Assembly: GCF_018224925.1 (NCBI RefSeq)
Contig: NZ_JAGTUF010000005.1
Coordinates: 153,578 to 217,577 of the forward strand
From: Magnetospirillum sulfuroxidans
Lineage (GTDB): Bacteria > Pseudomonadota > Alphaproteobacteria > Rhodospirillales > Magnetospirillaceae
Direction: 5' to 3'
DNA: 64,000 bases
A model generated the notes under the pieces. It was not told where the DNA came from. It saw only the letters and a list, made by a program, of their open reading frames with translations, and made no database searches. The translations under genes were made by a program, and so were the position numbers. Shown one piece after another: positions 5,743 to 33,887 of the stretch (position 1 is its first letter; every line of letters begins with the position of its first letter).

Positions 5743-5859
5743 TAAAAGCCCCACCCATGTAATTTGTCCATCCACCCCGCCCGGGTGTTCCGGTTGCTCT
5801 TGTCCCCAGGCATGCTGCGGTTAATAAAGCCAGCAACAAAGACGCGAGGGATCGACAAG

Positions 5860-7245
5860 ATGGACCAGTCGAAACGCTATTGTAACCTGCGCCTGAAAGA
5901 AGCCGAGTTGATGGCCCAAGGCCGTCATGTGCTGTGCGCTTATATCATGAAGCCCAAGCCGGGCCATGACCCGGTGGCCACCGCCGCCCATTTCGCCGCC
6001 GAATCCTCCACCGGCACCAATGTGGAAGTGTGCACCACCGACGACTTCACCCGTGGCGTCGATGCCCTGGTCTATGAAGTCACCGAACAGGCGGACGGCG
6101 ACTTCCTGATGAAGATCGCCTATCCCAATGATTTGTTCGACCGCAACATCAGCGACGGTCGCGCCATGATCGTGTCGTTCCTGACGCTGTCCATCGGCAA
6201 CAATCAGGGCATGAGCGACGTCGAATACGCCAAGATGCATGATTTCTGGGTGCCGCCGGCCATGTTGCAATTGTTCGATGGCCCGGCCATGAACATCGGC
6301 GACATGTGGCGGGTGCTGGGACGCCCACAGGTGAACGGCGGCATGGTGGTCGGCACCATCATCAAGCCCAAGCTGGGCCTGCGGCCCAAGCCGTTCGCCG
6401 ATGCCTGCCACCAATTCTGGCTGGGCGGCGATTTCATCAAGAATGACGAGCCCCAGGGCAATCAGGTGTTCGCCCCCATGCGCGAGGTGATCCCGCTGGT
6501 CGCCGACGCCATGCGCCGCGCCCAAGATACAACCGGTGCGGCCAAGCTGTTTTCCGCCAACATCACCGCCGACGATCCGTTCGAGATGATCAAGCGCGGC
6601 GAAATGATCTTGGAAACCTTCGGCGAAAACGCCAACCACGTGGCCTTTCTCGTCGACGGCTATGTCGGCGGCCCGACCGCCATCACCTTGGCCCGGCGCT
6701 ATTTCCCCGGCCAATTCCTGCATTATCATCGCGCCGGCCATGGCGCCGTCACCTCCAAGCAATCCAAGCGCGGCTATTCGGTGCTGACCCATATGAAGAT
6801 GGCCCGCCTGCAAGGGGCGTCGGGCATCCATACCGGCACCATGGGCTATGGCAAGATGGAGGGCGACAAGGACGAAAAGATGGTCGCCTACATGCTGGAA
6901 CGCGACCTCGCCGATGGCCTGTATTACCGCCAGGACTGGCAAGGCATGAAGGCGACGACGCCGATCATCTCGGGCGGGATGAACGCCTTGCGGCTGCCTG
7001 GATTTTTTGAAAACCTGGGCCATTCCAACGTCATTCAGACCTCGGGCGGTGGCGCTTTCGGCCACAAGGACGGCGGCACGGTGGGGGCCAAGTCGCTGCA
7101 TCTGGCGCACGAAGCCTGGGTCCGAGGCGTCAATCTGGTCGATTTCGCCCTGGAACACCCGGAACTGAAGGGAGCCTTTGAAAGCTTCCCCGACGACGCC
7201 GACAAGATTTATCCCGGCTGGCGCGACAAGTTGAAGGTGCGCTGA
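5860..7245 (+). CDS. cbbM: Ribulose-bisphosphate carboxylase, form II
   Basis: 461 residues, the normal length of form II enzymes, which work as large-subunit dimers without a small subunit. It fixes CO2 on ribulose 1,5-bisphosphate. The N-terminus [17 protein letters not shown] matches Rhodospirillum-type CbbM. Visible motifs are [28 protein letters not shown] with the carbamylated Lys, and the loop-6 segment [10 protein letters not shown]. The ATG at 5860 follows GCGAGGG; in-frame sequence back to 5764 is not typical of the family. Phosphoribulokinase follows in the same direction, separated by a strong hairpin. No cbbR lies beside it. Confidence 0.97.
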
Positions 7246-7250
7246 CCCTG

Positions 7251-7288
7251 TTTAGCCCCTCCTTCGCCCAAACGAAGGAGGGGCTAAA
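7251..7288. terminator. Perfect 16-bp hairpin between cbbM and the phosphoribulokinase gene
   Basis: TTTAGCCCCTCCTTCG (7251-7266) is exactly complementary to 7273-7288 with a 6-base loop. It starts 5 bp after the cbbM stop. The flanking A/T bases could serve termination in either direction; it may also stabilise the cbbM 3' end while reducing read-through into the kinase gene. Confidence 0.75.
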
Positions 7289-7392
7289 TACAGACTGCTT
7301 TGTGGAGTGGTCAAAAAAATTGGAGTAAGGGAAGTGCGGGCGGCCAATAAGCCCGCCCCCTGCTCCGGTTCGGAGAGAGAGGAAGGCCCAGC

Positions 7393-8286
7393 ATGTCGAG
7401 GAAGCATCCCATCATCGCCGTCACCGGTTCGTCCGGCGCCGGCACTTCCACGGTCAAGGAATCGTTCGAACACATGTTCCGGCGCGAAGGCATCAAGCCG
7501 GCGATCATCGAAGGTGACAGCTTCCATCGCTTCAACCGCGTGGACATGAAAAAGGCCATGGCCGAAGCCGAGAAAACCGGCAATCGCACCTTTTCCCATT
7601 TCGGCGCCGAGGCCAATCTGTTCGGTGAATTAGAGGAATTATTCCAGCGCTATGGCGAAACCGGGCGCGGCCGCCGCCGTTTCTATGTCCATAACGACGA
7701 GGAAGCCCACCGCTTCGCCCAGCACAACGTCAAATCGGGCGAGTTCACCCCGTGGGAGGACATGGCCGACAACACCGATTTGCTGTTCTATGAAGGACTG
7801 CACGGCTGCATCGTCACCAAGGAAAACAACGTCGCCCAGCATGCCGATCTGAAGATCGGCGTGGTGCCGGTGCTCAATCTGGAATGGATTCAAAAAATCC
7901 ACCGCGACACCCATATGCGCGGCTATTCGGAAGAAGCGGTGATGGAAACCATCCTGCGCCGCATGCACGATTATGTTCACTTCATCGTGCCGCAATTCAA
8001 ACTGACCGATATCAACTTTCAGCGCGTGCCCATCGTCGACACCTCGGACCCGATCATCGCCCGCGATATCCCGTCGGCGGATGAAAGCTTGGTGGTCATT
8101 CGCTTCCGCAAGCCCGACCGCTTCCGCGTCGACTTCCCGTTCCTGCTGCAAATGATCAAGGATTCGTGGATGAGCCGGCGCAACACCATCGTCGTCCCCG
8201 GCGGCAAGATGGGCTTGGCCATGGAATTGATCCTTACCCCGATCCTTCGCCGGATCATGGAAGACCGCAAGTCCTTGATGGGCTGA
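7393..8286 (+). CDS. cbbP: Phosphoribulokinase (class I, proteobacterial)
   Basis: 297 residues, the usual length of proteobacterial octameric phosphoribulokinases. It phosphorylates ribulose 5-phosphate with ATP to make the RuBisCO substrate. The P-loop GSSGAGTST is at residues 12-20, followed by EGDSFHRFNR, and FYEGLHG is the expected central motif. GAGGAAGG lies upstream of the ATG. Together with cbbM it supplies the two reactions unique to the Calvin cycle; no other cbb genes are present in the window. Confidence 0.96.
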   Translation: MSRKHPIIAVTGSSGAGTSTVKESFEHMFRREGIKPAIIEGDSFHRFNRVDMKKAMAEAEKTGNRTFSHFGAEANLFGELEELFQRYGETGRGRRRFYVHNDEEAHRFAQHNVKSGEFTPWEDMADNTDLLFYEGLHGCIVTKENNVAQHADLKIGVVPVLNLEWIQKIHRDTHMRGYSEEAVMETILRRMHDYVHFIVPQFKLTDINFQRVPIVDTSDPIIARDIPSADESLVVIRFRKPDRFRVDFPFLLQMIKDSWMSRRNTIVVPGGKMGLAMELILTPILRRIMEDRKSLMG

Positions 8287-8553
8287 CGGTCCCCATGAGC
8301 CGACGGGGGACCAAAACTACCGGCGTCCTGGGCAACCGGGGCGCCGGATTTTTGTCGGAATGCGGGATTACTTGAAATTCACGGCCCAAGGGTATAGTTT
8401 CGCCCCCGGTCGGCAGTTCACCAAGGCGTCGCTGTCCCGAAAGGGAAGCTAAACCTGCCAAATTCAATTCGACAGACACTTATCCTGTGCCGAGTCGTAA
8501 GGCAGCGACCAGCGACAATCCGTTCACGATCGGCACATTGTCGAGGATGAGTG

Positions 8554-9123
8554 ATGCCTAGAACAACCTTCCCTTTTGCCGCCCATGATGTATCCATCCT
8601 GGCGCGCAGCCTGAGCCGCGAACTTGAAGCGCTCAGTCAAAAACCAAGCCATGTGCAAATGCTGAACATGCTGGCCCGATCCGCCGGCTATCAGAACTAC
8701 CAGCATTTCCGCGCCCAAGCCCAAGCCCAGGACCGCCTGGATCACCCACCGGCCCTGCCCGCCCCGGCCGTGGTTGATTTCCGCCGGGTCGAACGCACCG
8801 CCCGCCACTTCACCCCATCGGGACAACTGATCCGCTGGCCGCCAAAGGCGCACCAACGATTGCTCTGTCTGTGGGTGTTGTGGTCGGTGGTGCCACCGGC
8901 TCAAGTTCTCACCGAGGCTCAAATCAACGAAAGACTGACCGCCGAACACCTGTTCGGCGATCATGCGCTGTTGCGCCGCGCGCTTTTCGATCAGGGACTT
9001 GTCACTCGCACCCCAGATTGCCGGCAATACCGGCGCCTGGAACAGCCGCCACCGGCCGAAGCCGCCGCCCTGATCCGGCACATCCGGTTGCGGCGCGACG
9101 CCCCTGACAGCAAATCCCGGTGA
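8554..9123 (+). CDS. DUF2087-type conserved hypothetical protein
   Basis: 189 residues. The N-terminal part is helical, with a segment PSHVQMLNMLARSAGYQNYQ that resembles a small motif shared by toxin/regulator-associated proteins. The C-terminal part (LTEAQINERL, then LLRRALFDQGLVTR and QYRRLE) has the winged-helix-like pattern of DUF2087, a domain often attached to transcription regulators. ATG 8554 is chosen over GTG 8551 because GAGG lies seven bases before it. Function is unknown; a nucleic-acid-binding role is inference. It is convergent with the kinase at 9425, with a hairpin array between them. Confidence 0.75.
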   Translation: MPRTTFPFAAHDVSILARSLSRELEALSQKPSHVQMLNMLARSAGYQNYQHFRAQAQAQDRLDHPPALPAPAVVDFRRVERTARHFTPSGQLIRWPPKAHQRLLCLWVLWSVVPPAQVLTEAQINERLTAEHLFGDHALLRRALFDQGLVTRTPDCRQYRRLEQPPPAEAAALIRHIRLRRDAPDSKSR

Positions 9124-9150
9124 GTTCCGACCACCGGGATGAATAAGGTG

Positions 9151-9412
9151 AAGGGGGGAGTGTTGGGGACACTCCCCCCTTCTTTGCCTACCGCCGGTCA
9201 CTGGGGTTCGGGGACGTTTCCGGCGGCGACAAGACTGGAGGAAGAACGTTTGGGGGCCGTTCTCCCTCCTGGGATTTTCCGCTGCACTGGGGTTCGGGGA
9301 CGTGAGGCGGAAAACCCCATTACGGTTAGGTGTGAGAGAGGTTCCGTTGGGGCGGAACCTCTCTCGAACGCTTGCTTTCGCCTTTAGGGTTCGGGGACGA
9401 CGAAAGCAAACG
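9151..9412. repeat. Array of six consecutive hairpins with conserved loops and unrelated stems
   Basis: The six stems are: A 9151-9162/9170-9181 (12 bp perfect); B 9191-9197/9220-9226 (7 bp); C 9237-9248/9258-9269 (11 of 12); D 9271-9282/9307-9318 (11 of 12); E 9334-9346/9353-9365 (13 bp perfect); F 9369-9380/9401-9412 (11 of 12). A, C and E have short loops with TTGGGG or TTTGGGGG. B, D and F have 20-24 base loops holding GGGTTCGGGGACG. The order short-long is kept three times while stem sequences differ. The array fills the 301-bp gap between two convergent genes; no gene is seen in it. At minimum it would terminate transcription from both sides. Confidence 0.88.
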
Positions 9413-9424
9413 AGGGGAATAACG

Positions 9425-11155
9425 TCAGGCGGCTTGCACCTCGCGACCAACCAAAGTGAGGTGGACCGGCTTGCGGCGCGGCAGCGAGAAACTAAAGGTA
9501 CTGCCTTCGCCCAATTGCGACTCGACACAGACCCGGCCGCCCATGTGCTCGACCATGCGGCGGACGATGGCCAAGCCGATCCCGGTGCCGGAATGGCCGT
9601 CAATGCCTTCCAGCCGGTGAAAAATCTCGAACAGGCGGACCCGATCATAGGGATCGATGCCGGCGCCGTTATCGATCACCGAAAACACCAGTTGATCGCC
9701 TTCGCAGGCAACGCTTACCCGGATCACCGGCTTGCGCGAATGGGCGTGATAGCGAATGGCGTTGTCGAGCAATTGGGTGAATATTTCCGTCAACGCCCGC
9801 TCGTCGATCGCCGCCGAAGGCATGGGATCAACCAAGATACTGGCCCCGGCGGCCCGAATTTGTTCGCCCAGACGATCCATGGCGGTGCCGATCGCCGCGC
9901 CGACAGCCACTTCGCCATCGGATTCGGGCATTTGATCGACGGCGACAAACGCCTCAAGATCCTTGACCAGCTTGCGCATGCGCTGCGCCCCATCGACCAC
10001 ATGGGCGACATAGCCCCTGCCTTCGTCATCCAGGGCCGAAGCCACATGGCTGGACAAGAGCTGGGCATAAGCGACGACCCGGCGCAGCGGTTCTTGCAAA
10101 TCATGCGCGGCCACTTCGGCGATGCGTTCAAGATCAGCCACATAACGGCGCAGACGGACCCGGCTGGCCAACAATTCCGATTTTTTCACCGCCAGATCGG
10201 CAGCGATGGATTCTTGCATCTTGACCATTCGGTACAACACCAGCAGCGCCGCCCCCAAGGCGAAGCTGACAATGCCGCCAATCAGCAGATGCCACGTCCG
10301 CGACCGATCATACACGGCCAAAGCCTCGGATTTGGCCCGCCCGACCAGCACCGAGAGCGGTAGGCTGGGCAACGGACGCAGGCTGACGATACGTTCGGTC
10401 CGATCCAACGGCCCCAAAGCCTGCACCGTCACCGCCTGACGCGCCTGAACCGCGTCAAGGACAGCGCCGCCGTCCAAATTGCGCCCCAGAAACGCGCCAC
10501 CGCCATTAGAGGCAACCCGAGCCACGCCATCGGTGCCGATCACCGCGATAACGCCGTTGTCACCGACATTAATCGAGCCGTAAATCTCGCCCAGATAATT
10601 GGGATCGAGGGAGATCACCAAAACCCCGGCGAAATTACCGTTGGTGTCATCCAGACGACGGGTCAGCTGAATGGACCATTTGCCCGAAGTCCGGCCCAGA
10701 ACCGGCTTACTGACAAATAATTGATCGCTATTGTCCTGGCGGTGAACGCGAAAATGTTCACGGTCGGACAGGTCCACCGGCTTAAAGCCAGGGACATTGC
10801 TGTCAGCCAGCCACCCCTTGGCATCAATGCGGGCGATCTGGACTGAAACCCGCTTCAAGATGACGTTGTTGGCCACCGAGCGGTTAAGGTCGAAGTGAAC
10901 GGGGTCTTGCTGGAACTCGGCGCGCAAATAAAGCAACGTCTGGTCAAGCCCGGCGATGGTCCGCTGGATATGTTCGTCGAAAGCGCGGGCCAGATTGGCG
11001 GTATCGGCGCGCGTATCGGCCAAGACCCGCTGATGCTCGGAATTCAGGCTGGCGATGATGCCGATCCAGACCAGCAGCAACAGCACGATACCGAACACGG
11101 CAACCGCACGGGCGCCATGGAACTTGACCGCACCGACGGGGGCGGCGCCGATCAT
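9425..11155 (-). CDS. Cache-domain sensor histidine kinase
   Basis: 576 residues. Membrane segments at about 16-37 and 289-309 enclose a double-Cache (PDC) periplasmic sensor domain, with DREHFRVHR and the DPNYLGEIY-type strand typical of dCache_1. The cytoplasmic part has a HisKA domain with H-box AAHDLQEPLRR (His351) and a HATPase_c domain with DNGAGI and GTGIGLAIV. It is divergent from the OmpR-type regulator at 11427, with a 271-bp shared upstream region, so the two are plausible partners. The signal is unknown; Cache domains usually bind small metabolites. Confidence 0.88.
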   Translation of the reverse strand: MIGAAPVGAVKFHGARAVAVFGIVLLLLVWIGIIASLNSEHQRVLADTRADTANLARAFDEHIQRTIAGLDQTLLYLRAEFQQDPVHFDLNRSVANNVILKRVSVQIARIDAKGWLADSNVPGFKPVDLSDREHFRVHRQDNSDQLFVSKPVLGRTSGKWSIQLTRRLDDTNGNFAGVLVISLDPNYLGEIYGSINVGDNGVIAVIGTDGVARVASNGGGAFLGRNLDGGAVLDAVQARQAVTVQALGPLDRTERIVSLRPLPSLPLSVLVGRAKSEALAVYDRSRTWHLLIGGIVSFALGAALLVLYRMVKMQESIAADLAVKKSELLASRVRLRRYVADLERIAEVAAHDLQEPLRRVVAYAQLLSSHVASALDDEGRGYVAHVVDGAQRMRKLVKDLEAFVAVDQMPESDGEVAVGAAIGTAMDRLGEQIRAAGASILVDPMPSAAIDERALTEIFTQLLDNAIRYHAHSRKPVIRVSVACEGDQLVFSVIDNGAGIDPYDRVRLFEIFHRLEGIDGHSGTGIGLAIVRRMVEHMGGRVCVESQLGEGSTFSFSLPRRKPVHLTLVGREVQAA

Positions 11156-11369
11156 CGCCGTCCTTCCCGCAAATGTGTGGCCGCCGCCTTGGTCTTGGGA
11201 CTAAAGTCCAAGTCCAACGCCCATCCCTGTGCGGCGGCGGCCATCCCGAGGTTCCGGGAAACGGCTCTGTGGTCGTGTTGCGTGGATATTGTCACGCTGG
11301 ACCTCCTCAATTCGTGGGGCTAGTTATAACTCGCCCCTTTCAATGGAATATCGGGTGTGCTTGAATTCG

Positions 11370-11398
11370 TGTGAAACACGGTGTGAACAAGGTGTAAA
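11370..11398. promoter_or_regulatory. Three direct TGTGAA-type repeats upstream of the response regulator
   Basis: TGTGAA at 11370 and 11382 and TGTAAA at 11393 recur at 12- and 11-bp spacing, about one helical turn, 29-57 bp before the GTG of the OmpR-type gene. Such phased direct repeats are the usual binding arrangement of OmpR/PhoB-family dimers, so autoregulation is a reasonable inference. Confidence 0.5.
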
Positions 11399-11426
11399 CA
11401 CCTGCCGGTAGAGAGGGAGAAAAACG

Positions 11427-12137
11427 GTGAACGGACCAGCCAAAGCGCATGTCCTGATCGTCGAGGATGAACCGGTCACCCGTGCGAAGCTGGCCGCTCA
11501 CCTCATTTCCGAGGGCTTCCAGGTCAGCGAGGCGGCCGACGCCCGCGACATGCGCGCCATCGTTTCGCGCACGGTTCCCGACGTCGTTTTGCTCGATATT
11601 AATTTGCCGGATGAAAGCGGCCTGATCCTGGCCCGCGATCTGCGGGCCAAATCATCGGTCGGAATCATCTTGGTGACCGCCCGCCAGGACGAAACCGACC
11701 GCATCGTCGGCCTGGAATTGGGGGCCGATGATTACATCACCAAACCGTTCAACGCGCGGGAACTGGCGGTACGGGTCCGTAACCTGATCCGCCGCGTTGC
11801 CCCGTCCATGGCGGCCGAGCGTCAGGCCAGCGGCGTCTATACATTTTCCGGCTGGAAACTTGATTGCGACGCCCGCCAGCTGATTTCCGCCCAGGGCGAG
11901 GCGGTACGCCTGACCCGCGGCGAATTCGACGTGCTGGCCGCGCTGGCCCGCAATGCCGGGCGGGCCTTGACCCGCGACCAGTTGTTGGACCTGACCCAGC
12001 ATGACGGCGAAGCGGTGATCGACCGCACCATCGACGTGCTGGTCGGTCGCTTGCGCCGCAAGATCGAAGCCGACCCCAAGCACCCGGCGATCATCGTCAC
12101 CGTTCACGGTATCGGCTATCGCTTGGCTGGAGCTTAG
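11427..12137 (+). CDS. OmpR-family response regulator, TorR/ArcA-like
   Basis: 236 residues. The receiver domain (about 8-122) has acidic residues in VEDE, phosphoacceptor Asp57 in VLLDINLPD, and Lys in ITKPF. A C-terminal winged helix (about 140-232) ends with the recognition-helix and wing pattern RTIDVLVGRLRRKIE and GIGYRL. The first strand HVLIVEDEPVTRAKL is close to TorR/ArcA proteins. The GTG start follows GAGAGGGA. It is divergent from the Cache kinase at 9425. The target genes are unknown. Confidence 0.9.
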   Translation: MNGPAKAHVLIVEDEPVTRAKLAAHLISEGFQVSEAADARDMRAIVSRTVPDVVLLDINLPDESGLILARDLRAKSSVGIILVTARQDETDRIVGLELGADDYITKPFNARELAVRVRNLIRRVAPSMAAERQASGVYTFSGWKLDCDARQLISAQGEAVRLTRGEFDVLAALARNAGRALTRDQLLDLTQHDGEAVIDRTIDVLVGRLRRKIEADPKHPAIIVTVHGIGYRLAGA

Positions 12138-12140
12138 CTC

Positions 12141-14027
12141 CTAAACCACCACTTCGTTAAGCGCCTTGAGCGAACGGTCCCACAATTCGCTCAAATCCTT
12201 GGCCAGATCCAAGGCGCTGCCGTCGCGGGCGCGGGCCGCGTTCTCGATGGCCCGGCAGCGGGCGGCCAAGGCCAACAGATGCAGGCTCGAGGCAGCCGAG
12301 GCCAACCGATGCACCGGCGACGCCAACCCCTCCAGATCGTCGGCGGCGGCCCGGATCAACGCCGCCTCCAGATCCTGAACCGAGGAACGCCCGAACAGAT
12401 CGACCAGCCCGCGCATGCGTTCATGGCCAAGGTCGCGCAGATCGGCCAGCAAATCGGGCAGATTGACCAGGGCCGGCCCACTGCTTGATTGCCGTTGGCC
12501 TGCCGCGGTCCCGCCAGCCATGATGCCGGCGACCTCTTCGACCCGGAACGGTTTGGCCAGACAGCCGTCGATGCCGGCTTCGCGCCAGGCGCGCACGTCC
12601 TGTTCCACCGGATTGGCGGTCAAGAGCCAGATATGCTGCGCCGGATCGGCGCCGGGAAGGGCGCGCAGCCGCCGCGCTACTTCCAACCCATCCATGTCGG
12701 GCATGTGCTTATCCAGCAAAATCAGGTCGAAACGGCGATGGCGGGCCAGTTCCAGGGCGGTGGGGCCATCGGCGGCGGTAACCGCCTGATGACCGTGACG
12801 TTCCAGCAAACCCGAGGCGACCTGCAAATTGACGGCATTGTCATCGACCAGCAGCACCAGTTGCGGCAGCATGGTCTGAATTTCCACTGGCGGCTTTGCG
12901 ATCGACTGCCCCTGAGGATCGGCGAAGGGAATCTGGAACCAAAATTGCGTGCCGCTGCCGGGGTGGCTGTCAAAGCCGATTTCACCGCCCATCAGGGTGA
13001 CCAGACGCTTGCAGATGGCCAGTCCCAGACCGGCCCCGCCATAGCGCCGCGCCACCGACGAATCGGCCTGGCTGAATTCCTGAAACAAGATGTCGCGGGC
13101 TTCCTCGGGGATACCGATGCCGGTATCGGACACGGTGATGCGCACGGTCCCCTGCGGCTCGACCGGCGCCACCGCGATCATCACCAGACCATGATCGGTG
13201 AATTTGATGGCGTTGCCGACAAGATTGAGCAAAACCTGACGCAGCCGCAGCGGGTCGCCCAACACCTCACGCGGGACTTCGGGCGGGAAACGACAGCCCA
13301 GCGTCAACCCTTTGTCGGCGGCGCGCGGGGCCATCAGCAGGCGGATATCCTCGACCATGTTCAGCAGATCGAAAGCGGCGGTCTCCAGGGTCAGGCCATC
13401 GGCTTCCAGGCGGGAAAAGTCCAAGATGTCGTTGACCAGCCCCAGCAGCAATTCACCCGACGACACCACGGTTTCGGCGAACACCTTTTGCCGTTGGTCC
13501 AAGGCGGTGTCCAGCAACAGCCGGGCCATGCCCAAGATGCCGTTCAACGGCGTCCGAATTTCGTGACCGACCGTAGCCAGGAACAGGGATTTGGCTTGTG
13601 CCGCCGCTTCCGCCTTGTCACGGGCCTCGCGCAGGGCCTGCTCGGCGTTCTTGCGCTCCACCGCATAACGCACCACCCGCGACAGAATGAAACCGTCGTC
13701 GCGCCCCTTGACCAGATAATCCTGGGCGCCGTGCTTCAACGCCTCGATCGCCTGGGAATCGTCATCGTTGCCGGTCAGCACCACCACCGCCATGTCGGGG
13801 GCGGCGTCGGTCAGCGCCCGCAAGGTATCCAGGCCAGAGGAATCGGGCAGCGACAGATCGGCCAGCACGACGTTGAACCCGCCCTGGGCGATACGTTCCA
13901 CCGCCTGGGACAGCTTCGAGCAGATTTCCACCGAAAACACCGTCCGCGGCGCCTTGCGCAACATCAGATCGACCAGCCGGGCATCGGCGGGATCGTCTTC
14001 CAACAGCAAGACGCGGATGGCGTCCAT
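12141..14027 (-). CDS. Hybrid histidine kinase: REC-HisKA-HATPase-REC-Hpt
   Basis: 628 residues, no membrane segment, so cytoplasmic. The order is receiver 1 (4-118, Asp57 in LADLSLPD), HisKA ([10 protein letters not shown], His155), HATPase_c (about 260-370, [15 protein letters not shown]), receiver 2 (about 388-505, Asp439 in [11 protein letters not shown]) and a C-terminal Hpt domain (His573 in [11 protein letters not shown]). It carries a complete phosphorelay in one chain and can accept phosphate from an upstream kinase through receiver 1. The ATG at 14027 is two bases behind the stop of the preceding receiver gene, which suggests translational coupling; a longer reading from 14060 overlaps that gene and is less likely. 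Confidence 0.9.
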
Positions 14028-14029
14028 GG

Positions 14030-14479
14030 TCAGGCGGGAAGCCGGACGATGTCGAACCAATAGGTTTCCATCGTGTGGATATGATGGGCGAATTCGTCGG
14101 CATCCATGGGTTTGCTGATAAAGCTGTTGGCGCCAAGATTGTAACTGCGAACGATATCGCGCTCGGCTTCCGAGGTGGACAGCACGATCACCGGAATACC
14201 GCGCAGGGCCGGATCGTTCTTGAGTTCCTGCAAAATCTCGTGCCCGGAACGGCCGGGCAAATTAAGGTCGAGCAAGATCAGATGCGGTCGCGGCGATTCG
14301 GTGAAATTGGCGCCGATCCGACGTAAAAAGCCAAAAGCCTCGGCGGAATCCCGAGCATGGTGCAAGGTGACCGCATGACGGCCTTTGCGCAAGGCGATGC
14401 GCACCAATCCGGCATCGGCCAGATCGTCCTCCACCAGCAAAATGTGATACCCGCCCTCGACGTTTCGCATGCCCACCAT
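14030..14479 (-). CDS. Stand-alone receiver protein, Rcp1-like
   Basis: 149 residues, a single receiver domain with no output. Acidic VEDD, phosphoacceptor Asp71 in [13 protein letters not shown], Thr/Ser switch in VLSTSE and Lys in SKPMD are all present. The [14 protein letters not shown] pattern is that of phytochrome-type Rcp1 receivers, which usually pair with kinases like the one at 14537. It sits between that kinase and the hybrid kinase at 12141, all in one direction, and probably shuttles phosphate between them. The start may be the second ATG at 14470. Confidence 0.88.
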
Positions 14480-31676: not shown

Positions 31677-33887
31677 GTGACAAAAAATACGAACAGCGAC
31701 ACAGAAGCACTCATAGATGAGCTAAAAAAATTGTATTCTAGCAGAAGAATACATCTATCGCGGAGCCAGCTGTCAGAAAATGCAAAAATTAACCGCCCCC
31801 GGCCTAGCGACTTAAACCCCCGCGCTCAGGATCGTTATGGCGAAAACGATATTACAGATGTGTTCGAATACACAAATGATTTCTTCAAGAACACTGAACG
31901 CTGCTTATTTAAATTACCGCCAGGCAGAGAAGTATTCAACAAAGAATATGGTTACTGTTATCCATCCGATAAGCATGTAGAGAATTTCACACATCAGGAA
32001 GGATACAGGGGACACATAAACAGATCAGAAAGATCTGTCGACGACTGGGTTTGTAATATTATCAATAAAATAAATTTAAATAACATATCAAAGACGGAAC
32101 AATACCTCCCACACATAGAGTTCATAACTGGTAAAGTTGGAAGCGGAAAATCAACGTTCGTTAATTTTTTCTCAGAAGGATACAGAGATAAGTTTATAGA
32201 AAACAATATACTTTTTACACTAATCCCTCACGACTTATTCTCATCAAAGATAAGTGCAGACAGAACGAAACAAGCACTCACAGACGACATTAGATACATT
32301 GAAATAACAAAGACAATACAAAGAAGCATTGCAGCATCGTTTAGTCAAAACGATATCTTAATAAACAAAATTGGCGGAAGAGAGAAGGCTCGAGATGATT
32401 TTAGCGAATTCTGCAAAAACAAAGGAGCCGCATTCGACAAGAAAGACCTCCATTCAGTAGTTTACCCCAACACACCTGTTGGTGAAAATACACTCAGATC
32501 ACTCTCGTACTTACCGCAATTTCTTGCAATAAAGGGAATAAAATTCCTCGTTAGCATAGACGGATTAGATGCACTCAGCTTTGGCTCAATTGTAAAAGGA
32601 GAATACACACAACTATTCAATGACTTGGCGACGGTGATATTTGGAGAAAAACAACGCCACCATACTATCCCGCACACAAATTACATTATAACCCTAAGGG
32701 ACTGCACCTACGAGACGTTTGTCTGCGCGCACTCCGAGCGACTCCGCAGGGTGGAGCAACGCAAACTTGTTCCATGTGAATTCAATACCCTATTGAGAAG
32801 AGGCGTCGCCTATTTCATTCAACATGATAAATCAGAAAAGTCTTTCTGGAGAGGGAGAGAGGATTCCGTTGAATGGTTTTGGAGAAAACTTTTAGAAACA
32901 ATGTCAAAGGCACTTGGCATTAAAAATGACGAAGAAATATCAAAGTTTTTTGATTACAACCATAGACAACTAATGGAGTCCGTGATTGAAGTTGCGACAT
33001 TTGTTCTGTCAGGTACAATTAAGGGAAAGGACTCAGAGTTTAAAGATATTTTTGATTTATTTGAGTACATAAAAAGAGACGGAAGCTACTTATCTTCATC
33101 AAGTCAATATGATATATTTGAGGCATTCCTAATCCGGGATAGAATTGGTTTCTTCAATAAAGTACAGCTTGGAAAAAAATACAGCCACGATATATTCGGG
33201 GCTACGGTTGACAATCTATTTAACTACCACCTTGACCACAAAGATCAAATTGACATACCAAATTTTCTTCTAATAAAAGTTCGTATTTTACAGTACCTTG
33301 ACAAAATAAATGACTATTGCGACATAGAGTCTATTGATGAACTGTTGAAATGCCTTGGATATCACTGCTCCCGGAACGAACTAACAGACATAATGGAGAT
33401 TTTGCAGGCAGGAGGTTTCGTTAAAATTGTTTACAAAAACGACAAATACACTTACAGTATAAGTAATTTTGGGTATATCGCTATAAACAGAATGCTGTTT
33501 AATATGAGATACATTGAAAATGTAATATTAGATACATTTGTGCCAAGGATTTTATCATCAAAGTTCAAGGGACAATATAAGCATAATAGTGTCGTCTCTA
33601 TATCCCGCTGGATTGAGCAATCACTTATAAATACATTCTTATTTTTACAGGTGATTATGGAGATAGAGAGAGCGGAATGTGAGATTTTTGAGAAAAACAA
33701 GGGAAATCTATTATTTGATAATTTCTATTTTCGTATATCACCGAAACTCACGGAAACAATATGTGACTTTATAGATAATATTGACGAATCAAGAACAGTT
33801 AATTTCAGAACACTATCTGACAACATAGTCAGAATAATACAAGAATATAAAGATAATAAAGAGCAGCCACCCCATCAATTAGACTAA
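31677..33887 (+). CDS. AT-rich orphan P-loop NTPase, possible STAND-like defence ATPase
   Basis: 736 residues. Base composition is far more AT-rich than every neighbour (ATA, AAA, TTA and AGA codons are common), a sign of transfer. Walker A is GKVGSGKST (152-160), the Walker B candidate is LVSIDGLD (Asp295, Asp298) and YIITLRDCTYE (Arg341, Asp342) fits a sensor-1 strand of AAA/STAND ATPases. The C-terminal 350 residues are helical with a probable winged-helix stretch (about 560-610) and no recognised effector. There is no membrane segment. The GTG start follows GAGGG by ten bases. The gene stands alone between the RND operon and a convergent gene whose 3' end it overlaps. The defence role is a guess from architecture and islet character. 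Confidence 0.8.
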   Translation: MTKNTNSDTEALIDELKKLYSSRRIHLSRSQLSENAKINRPRPSDLNPRAQDRYGENDITDVFEYTNDFFKNTERCLFKLPPGREVFNKEYGYCYPSDKHVENFTHQEGYRGHINRSERSVDDWVCNIINKINLNNISKTEQYLPHIEFITGKVGSGKSTFVNFFSEGYRDKFIENNILFTLIPHDLFSSKISADRTKQALTDDIRYIEITKTIQRSIAASFSQNDILINKIGGREKARDDFSEFCKNKGAAFDKKDLHSVVYPNTPVGENTLRSLSYLPQFLAIKGIKFLVSIDGLDALSFGSIVKGEYTQLFNDLATVIFGEKQRHHTIPHTNYIITLRDCTYETFVCAHSERLRRVEQRKLVPCEFNTLLRRGVAYFIQHDKSEKSFWRGREDSVEWFWRKLLETMSKALGIKNDEEISKFFDYNHRQLMESVIEVATFVLSGTIKGKDSEFKDIFDLFEYIKRDGSYLSSSSQYDIFEAFLIRDRIGFFNKVQLGKKYSHDIFGATVDNLFNYHLDHKDQIDIPNFLLIKVRILQYLDKINDYCDIESIDELLKCLGYHCSRNELTDIMEILQAGGFVKIVYKNDKYTYSISNFGYIAINRMLFNMRYIENVILDTFVPRILSSKFKGQYKHNSVVSISRWIEQSLINTFLFLQVIMEIERAECEIFEKNKGNLLFDNFYFRISPKLTETICDFIDNIDESRTVNFRTLSDNIVRIIQEYKDNKEQPPHQLD

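Follow-up and report, generated by a model that had tools for sequence, protein, structure and literature searches.

A 64,000-nucleotide stretch of Magnetospirillum sulfuroxidans DNA, analysed here at its full length and called the window, carries directly behind a sensor-kinase gene an array of six hairpins that we propose to be a minus-strand small RNA linked to a two-component system, which would be made at the 3' end of the kinase message and would act in trans through its C-rich loops; we put the probability of this reading at roughly 0.55. A small regulatory RNA is likely because pairing on one strand has persisted through mutation and because two relatives keep the array without the kinase. 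The array would represent an RNA of Magnetospirillum and its relatives that lies below every Rfam 15 cut-off and is tied to one regulator.

The array occupies positions 9150-9412, where six successive hairpins alternate strictly between a long form (B) and a short form (A), as the initial annotation had described; the repeat unit is a B+A hairpin pair, and the window array has three. Read on the minus strand, it begins at its 5' end with B1 (9369..9412, loop GUCCCCGAACCCUAAA), which is followed by A1 (9334..9365, loop CCCCAA), B2 (9270..9319, loop GUCCCCGAACCCCA), A2 (9237..9269, loop GCCCCCAAA), B3 (9184..9232, loop GUCCCCGAACCCCA) and finally A3 (9150..9182, loop CCCCA); the hairpins were read from the fold, and A1 and A2 are further supported by covariation. 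The minus strand folded into exactly six hairpins (-143.1 kcal/mol, z -11.9), with the B and A loops unpaired in the minimum-energy structure, and none of 200 shuffles equalled it, whereas the plus strand, although likewise equalled by none of 200 shuffles (z -4.0), did not adopt the six-hairpin form. Among 966 stretches of 264 nt, taken from both strands of the window in steps of 132, the lowest energy belonged to the minus strand of the array (-139.1) and the second lowest to its plus strand (-133.4). Having six hairpins does not by itself set the array apart, as at least six other stretches of the window show six hairpins of at least 10 pairs. The motif GGGTTCGGGGACG has three copies in the window, all inside the array (at most one mismatch; 0.25 expected), and is weak evidence when taken alone, as 1 of 100 shuffles also gave three matches; no exact copy was found outside the array in the 4.13-Mb genome. 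The last A hairpin is terminator-like in many relatives: in 20 of 29 arrays, the 12 nt that follow its counted arm include at least five T, a count made without a control. This character is weak in the window copy, where A3 is without a clear U tract and was not reported by a terminator scan. The earlier view that the structure is much more than a terminator needs is supported.

The strand on which the stems are maintained was read from their non-Watson-Crick positions. Stem arms were picked by Watson-Crick matches alone, so that both strands were treated alike, across 70 units from 29 arrays, summed over two groups; as the sequences are related, the counts are not independent events. In the minus-strand reading, the A stems contained 726 Watson-Crick, 38 G-U, 1 A-C and 5 other positions, and the B stems contained 524 Watson-Crick, 23 G-U, 1 A-C and 12 other positions. 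Because G-U outnumbered A-C by 61 to 2, pairing has been kept as minus-strand RNA, and the functional loops are therefore C-rich, not G-rich. The B loop is UCCCCGAACCCCA, exact in 60 of the 70 units, with 13 nt kept including a GAA, and the A loop has four to six consecutive C and then A, in the form CCCC(C)AA. The B core TCCCCGAACCCCA was likewise exact in 60/70 units, whereas the left arms came in 50 distinct forms for B and 45 for A. As units were anchored on B-loop variants and A hairpins were required to contain CCCC, this constancy arises partly by construction; the contrast between near-constant loops and so many distinct left arms is still plain, and a listing by fold alone, in regions also chosen by motif, shows the same B/A alternation. 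The conserved loops that the initial annotation had pointed out hold up as an element that recurs within a structured RNA, and they are better read as C-rich loops of a minus-strand RNA than as G-rich ones.

The stems are under selection for minus-strand pairing and show compensatory changes, which bears out the initial annotation's suggestion of selection for structure. In A1, 115/115 cells were paired (0/500 shuffles) and 6 of 13 pairs had changed on both sides (0/500), and in A2, 95.0% of cells were paired (0/500) and 7 of 12 pairs had changed on both sides (1/500), all against shuffles that do not preserve relatedness. Further pair types were unremarkable in A1 (reached by 378/500 shuffles) and somewhat high in A2 (13/500). 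When the partner columns were slid, pairing fell to 41.7-64.3% for A1 and to 52.1-73.9% for A2. The A1 alignment (numbered A3 among the alignments) comprised 11 of 13 orthologues, nine of them distinct, with G010 and G013 omitted for their shifted arms, and the A2 alignment comprised 13 sequences, ten distinct; alignment A4 kept row L139 though it is one position out of register. The alignment of the third A hairpin (A5; 12/13 sequences, without G011) was left uncounted, its arms being out of register. Among the 13 three-unit arrays, the nearest relative of a unit was the unit at the same position in another genome in 36 of 39 cases, lay within the same array in two and elsewhere in one. Since the units are in this way orthologous by position, each has diverged where it stands, and nothing that rewrites stems has to be invoked: the copying process that had been suggested is replaced by ordinary divergence with compensatory change.

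The distribution of the array was assessed with the pattern TCCCCGAACCCCA-N15-45-CCCCAA in 317 genomes of the order. Matches were found in 28 genomes, all in one family and with one locus per genome, and in none of the 262 genomes of other families; a reversed control pattern gave no forward match and one reverse match. Twelve of the 13 genomes of the own genus matched, the own genome included, as did 14 of 17 in a sister genus (g7) and one genome in each of two further genera (G013 and G021). The thirteenth genome of the own genus, G010, has an array with drifted loops that lies outside the pattern (TTCCCGAACCCC in two of three B loops), so that the pattern can miss divergent copies. Recurrence in the genus, which had been named beforehand as the test of the array, was thus seen by pattern in 11 of the 12 other genomes, and in the twelfth, G010, with drifted loops. 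The array has three units in the own genus, except for two in M. sp. UT-4, three units in G013, two in g7 and one in G021. The g7 B loop begins AUCCCC; it was overlooked by the first pattern and found by walking from the regulator gene. A scan of named genomes with a stricter pattern gave 13 loci, in Magnetospirillum (M. aberrantis, M. moscoviense, M. sp. UT-4, 64-120 and others), in Rhodospirillaceae and Rhodospirillales bins, in one "Stygiobacter sp." bin and in one Streptomyces, the last of which we took as chance. A model search of five array-bearing genomes returned one locus each. The model R1, which was used in one search only, holds just seven pairs because MAFFT does not register stems.

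Several weaker matches were set aside. The 13-mer CGTCCCCGAACCC is unspecific alone, matching in 41 of 149 relatives, and its reversed control often matches outside the own genus. Six single copies of it lie outside the array in five array-bearing genomes (G001, G005, G011 twice, G013 and G021); they were taken as chance, the surroundings of four of the six having been viewed. Nine stretches of viral contigs, with one exact 16-mer match each, were also taken as chance. A candidate second copy in the own genome (G000:C1:10413-10494, 25.8 bits and E 0.002 in a model search) lies inside a same-strand open frame and forms no array.

Upstream of the array on the same strand lies a histidine kinase gene (9425..11155, minus strand; Pfam: weak dCache, HisKA, HATPase_c), the stop codon of which precedes the array by 12 nt, and the two are predicted to be co-transcribed. 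In most genomes that carry it, the array sits close behind the kinase gene: the distance from the kinase stop to the first B loop is 26-36 nt in all 13 kinase-linked arrays of the own genus and G013, and in 13 of 14 g7 genomes a 368-378-aa open frame stops 30-111 nt short of this loop. Judged by its C-terminus, this frame looks like a shorter kinase in one of these genomes (G018), and it was taken likewise in the others, without a Pfam scan. We also observed that the frame before the array (its C-terminus is at 9425-9445 in the window) carries Ala-Ala at its end or one residue from it in 24 of 26 readable cases, in proteins of differing length; the three kinase-like frames of g7 genomes without an array have no such ending. 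A terminal Ala-Ala resembles a C-terminal degradation signal, and these codons may be part of the RNA or, alternatively, such a signal. In G010, the kinase orthologue (G010:C3 190457-192116) reads as two separate frames.

Divergent from the kinase lies a gene for an OmpR-type response regulator (11427..12137, plus strand), the closest NCBIfam models of which, TorR (258.8 bits against a cut-off of 275) and ArcA (239 against 334), both score below cut-off. A hybrid histidine kinase (12141..14060, minus strand), with TorS, BarA and ArcB as its closest models, again below cut-off, is its likely partner; by eye, UT-4 resembles the window in having a hybrid kinase on the far side of the regulator. 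The regulator is 83-97% identical among the array-bearing genomes compared and 85-89% identical in 17/17 g7 genomes. In G051, the regulator match is partial (residues 5-175 of 236; G051:C1 1452791-1453303) and the frame upstream could not be read clearly. Between regulator and kinase, a conserved block (11320..11399) contains TATAA on the kinase strand and three direct repeats, GTGTGAAAC, GTGTGAAC and GTGTAAAC, at 11369-11399, spaced by 11-12 bp as judged by eye. Such spacing is typical of an OmpR-family binding site, and we predict that the block is a promoter/operator. In an alignment of this intergenic region from 16 genomes, TATA stood on the kinase strand in 12, and a central block was common to the aligned genomes, UT-4 included, with G021 aligning weakly.

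On the other side, a DUF2087 gene (8551-9123, plus strand) is convergent with the array across a gap of 26 nt. An Rfam COG3860 RNA motif (RF02940, 73.9 bits) lies upstream of this gene at 8407-8460 on the plus strand, and the same motif occurs near the array in G011 (L043, 75.0 bits). Genes for a RuBisCO large chain and a phosphoribulokinase are also near the array (5764-8286, plus strand). Farther along the window, a 736-aa gene (31677-33887, plus strand) with a P-loop-like motif seen by eye lies in a stretch of 37% G+C, compared with 58-68% in other 2-kb stretches, and gave neither a Pfam match above cut-off nor a PADLOC match; it looks like a recent import.

Array and kinase also occur apart. 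In M. sp. UT-4 and G021, the divergent regulator is the array's immediate neighbour, with no intervening kinase, and the best kinase matches in these genomes have 38% and 37% identity, against 50-80% for orthologues elsewhere. The layout in G021, which is the same as in JACRFY010000241.1, consists of a single B+A unit followed by ATTTCTTTTG, and we infer that it is a minimal sRNA layout. In three g7 genomes (G046, G047 and G050), the regulator and a kinase-like frame are present, and neither a hairpin scan nor a model search found an array.

On the small-RNA reading that we favour, the array would be transcribed as the 3' end of the sensor-kinase message and would be released from it by processing, and the response regulator (11427..12137) would govern it by way of the divergent intergenic block. 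In genomes that lack the kinase, the RNA would be made directly from the divergent promoter, and in each case the last A hairpin may end transcription. By analogy with GsrN and sX13, the exposed C-rich loops are predicted to act on G-rich messages, and would pair with G-rich mRNA sites near start codons. The GAA kept between two C runs exceeds what simple pairing with G tracts calls for and would be equally apt for binding a protein. The protein-binding array that the initial annotation had suggested may also apply. Outside the array, the own genome contains no exact match to the 13-mer that pairs with the B loop, and target motifs were looked up within the window as exact short motifs.

The hairpins might instead act purely in cis, as a 3' UTR that merely stabilises or terminates the kinase message. 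The close and regular distance to the kinase stop codon is what such an element would produce, and the T-rich sequence that follows the last A hairpin in 20/29 arrays points the same way, but a single hairpin would suffice for this purpose, and a role that needs only stems leaves unexplained why the loops vary less than the stems. Moreover, array and kinase are separable, with two genomes keeping the array without the kinase and three keeping a kinase-like frame without the array, and a purely cis role is therefore disfavoured; we consider it unlikely. An antisense element directed against the convergent neighbour would draw on the 26-nt distance from the end of the DUF2087 gene and, by eye, on phosphoribulokinase-like frames convergent with the array in three relatives (L036, L041 and L042). 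However, the convergent gene changes among relatives, being by eye DUF2087-like, phosphoribulokinase-like or other, and it is the loops that are constant while the stem sequence is not conserved, which makes such a function very improbable. Least credible of all is a REP-like mobile repeat or a plus-strand DNA array that binds protein or forms G-quadruplexes, for which the inverted repeats with constant loops and the G runs of the plus strand would speak; a mobile repeat and a G-rich fold were among the readings of the initial annotation. The array is confined to one locus per genome and not dispersed, its units are orthologous by position, and both the G-U to A-C ratio and the fold identify the minus-strand RNA as the selected form.

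A rival of a different kind accepts a trans-acting RNA and makes it a titrating sponge, the repeated loops of which would bind and titrate away an RNA-binding protein or a single particular RNA in the manner of CsrB/RsmZ and CsrA, with unit number setting the dose. CsrB and RsmZ are built of numerous hairpins in which the loop is constant and the stem free to vary, and the array likewise combines tandem hairpins, constant loops and free stems with a unit number of three, two or one by lineage; the strictness of the B loop over 13 nt, GAA included, also favours a sponge. CsrA, however, needs GGA in hairpin loops, and the array loops, in the units read, are without it, so that a protein other than CsrA would have to be bound; the sole match to PrrB_RsmZ was on the plus strand and scored 11.8 bits against a cut-off of 44. 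Pairing of C-rich loops with G-rich mRNAs, by contrast, has documented precedents in GsrN and sX13, and a sponge is in our view possible, if rather doubtful. Slightly more tentative still is a broader proposal, in which the array would serve as the RNA output of the two-component system, a modular cassette of one to three units that would stand under a TorR/ArcA-like regulator, located either within a kinase 3' UTR or in a gene of its own, and the 13-nt C-rich loop of which would dock a dedicated RNA-binding protein or a partner RNA. The relatives offer a natural experiment, in which the kinase occurs without the array, the array without the kinase, and the array with one, two or three units; deletions, for example in M. 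gryphiswaldense, could separate dose, loop identity and kinase coupling.

No Rfam 15 family reached its gathering score over the array. The nearest was BjrC80 (RF02354), which matched 9144-9322 on the minus strand over the full length of the model (1-162) with 40.9 bits (E 1.7e-6); the gathering cut-off is 80 bits, and the best relative scored 44.0. Among further arrays, BjrC80 was found at three of six loci at E <=0.01 (41.5-44.0 bits) and at none of five in another set at E 0.1. Applied with stricter filters to 289 genomes of the class, the model gave nothing above cut-off and did not return the own array; its one weak match, in G176 (31.2 bits), was read only as sequence. Table 1 of a transcriptome study of M. 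gryphiswaldense lists a predicted BjrC80 sRNA of 181 nt by its coordinates, on the minus strand, with 43.4 bits and function unknown, and its entry gives no start site in either condition (PMC9549626), which would count against the small-RNA reading. Because the orthologous array in G007 gives 43.5 bits over 181 nt, this predicted RNA is very likely the same array, although the coordinates tabulated there and those of the G007 array differ by ~93 kb; this suggests that the Rfam-predicted BjrC80 of M. gryphiswaldense is part of a longer conserved array. Beyond these lines on BjrC80, we noticed no description of the array in the open-licence papers searched; where PMC4842269 and PMC7143759 mention BjrC RNAs, they name only other BjrC sRNAs or the group. 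The BjrC80 consensus alternates long and short hairpins with C-rich loops, as the array does, whereas its loop sequence is unlike that of the array. The likeness may reflect homology or a shared architecture, and we do not claim membership.

The predicted arrangement of a protein gene followed by small RNA in one message also recalls the CcsR (cuckoo) RNAs, the loop motif of which is CCUCCUCCC; the array loops are UCCCCGAACCCCA and CCCC(C)AA instead. In the ccaF1-CcsR transcripts described in Rhodobacterales, sRNAs are co-transcribed behind a protein gene, cut by RNase E and closed by an end terminator (PMC10253847). There, the upstream gene is of the DUF1127 type, whereas the array is preceded by a histidine kinase gene, as assigned by Pfam. 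The alphaproteobacterial sRNA GsrN is driven by sigma-EcfG, is not known to be tandemly repeated, and differs from the array in its locus; the sigma-EcfG promoter motif GGAAC-N15-17-CGTT has no match in the whole window. GsrN resembles the array in its C-rich loop, which in Caulobacter is described as pairing with a G tract in the katG leader (PMC5869019). The sX13 RNA of Xanthomonas is from another bacterial class and another locus, and its Rfam model (RF02232) scores at chance level on the array (17.1 bits, cut-off 50; E 0.67). It is reported to have three stable stems, the apical C-rich loops of which act on G-rich motifs near start sites (PMC3771888). In common with GsrN and sX13, the array has, in its predicted fold, unpaired C-rich loops that would be able to pair with G tracts.
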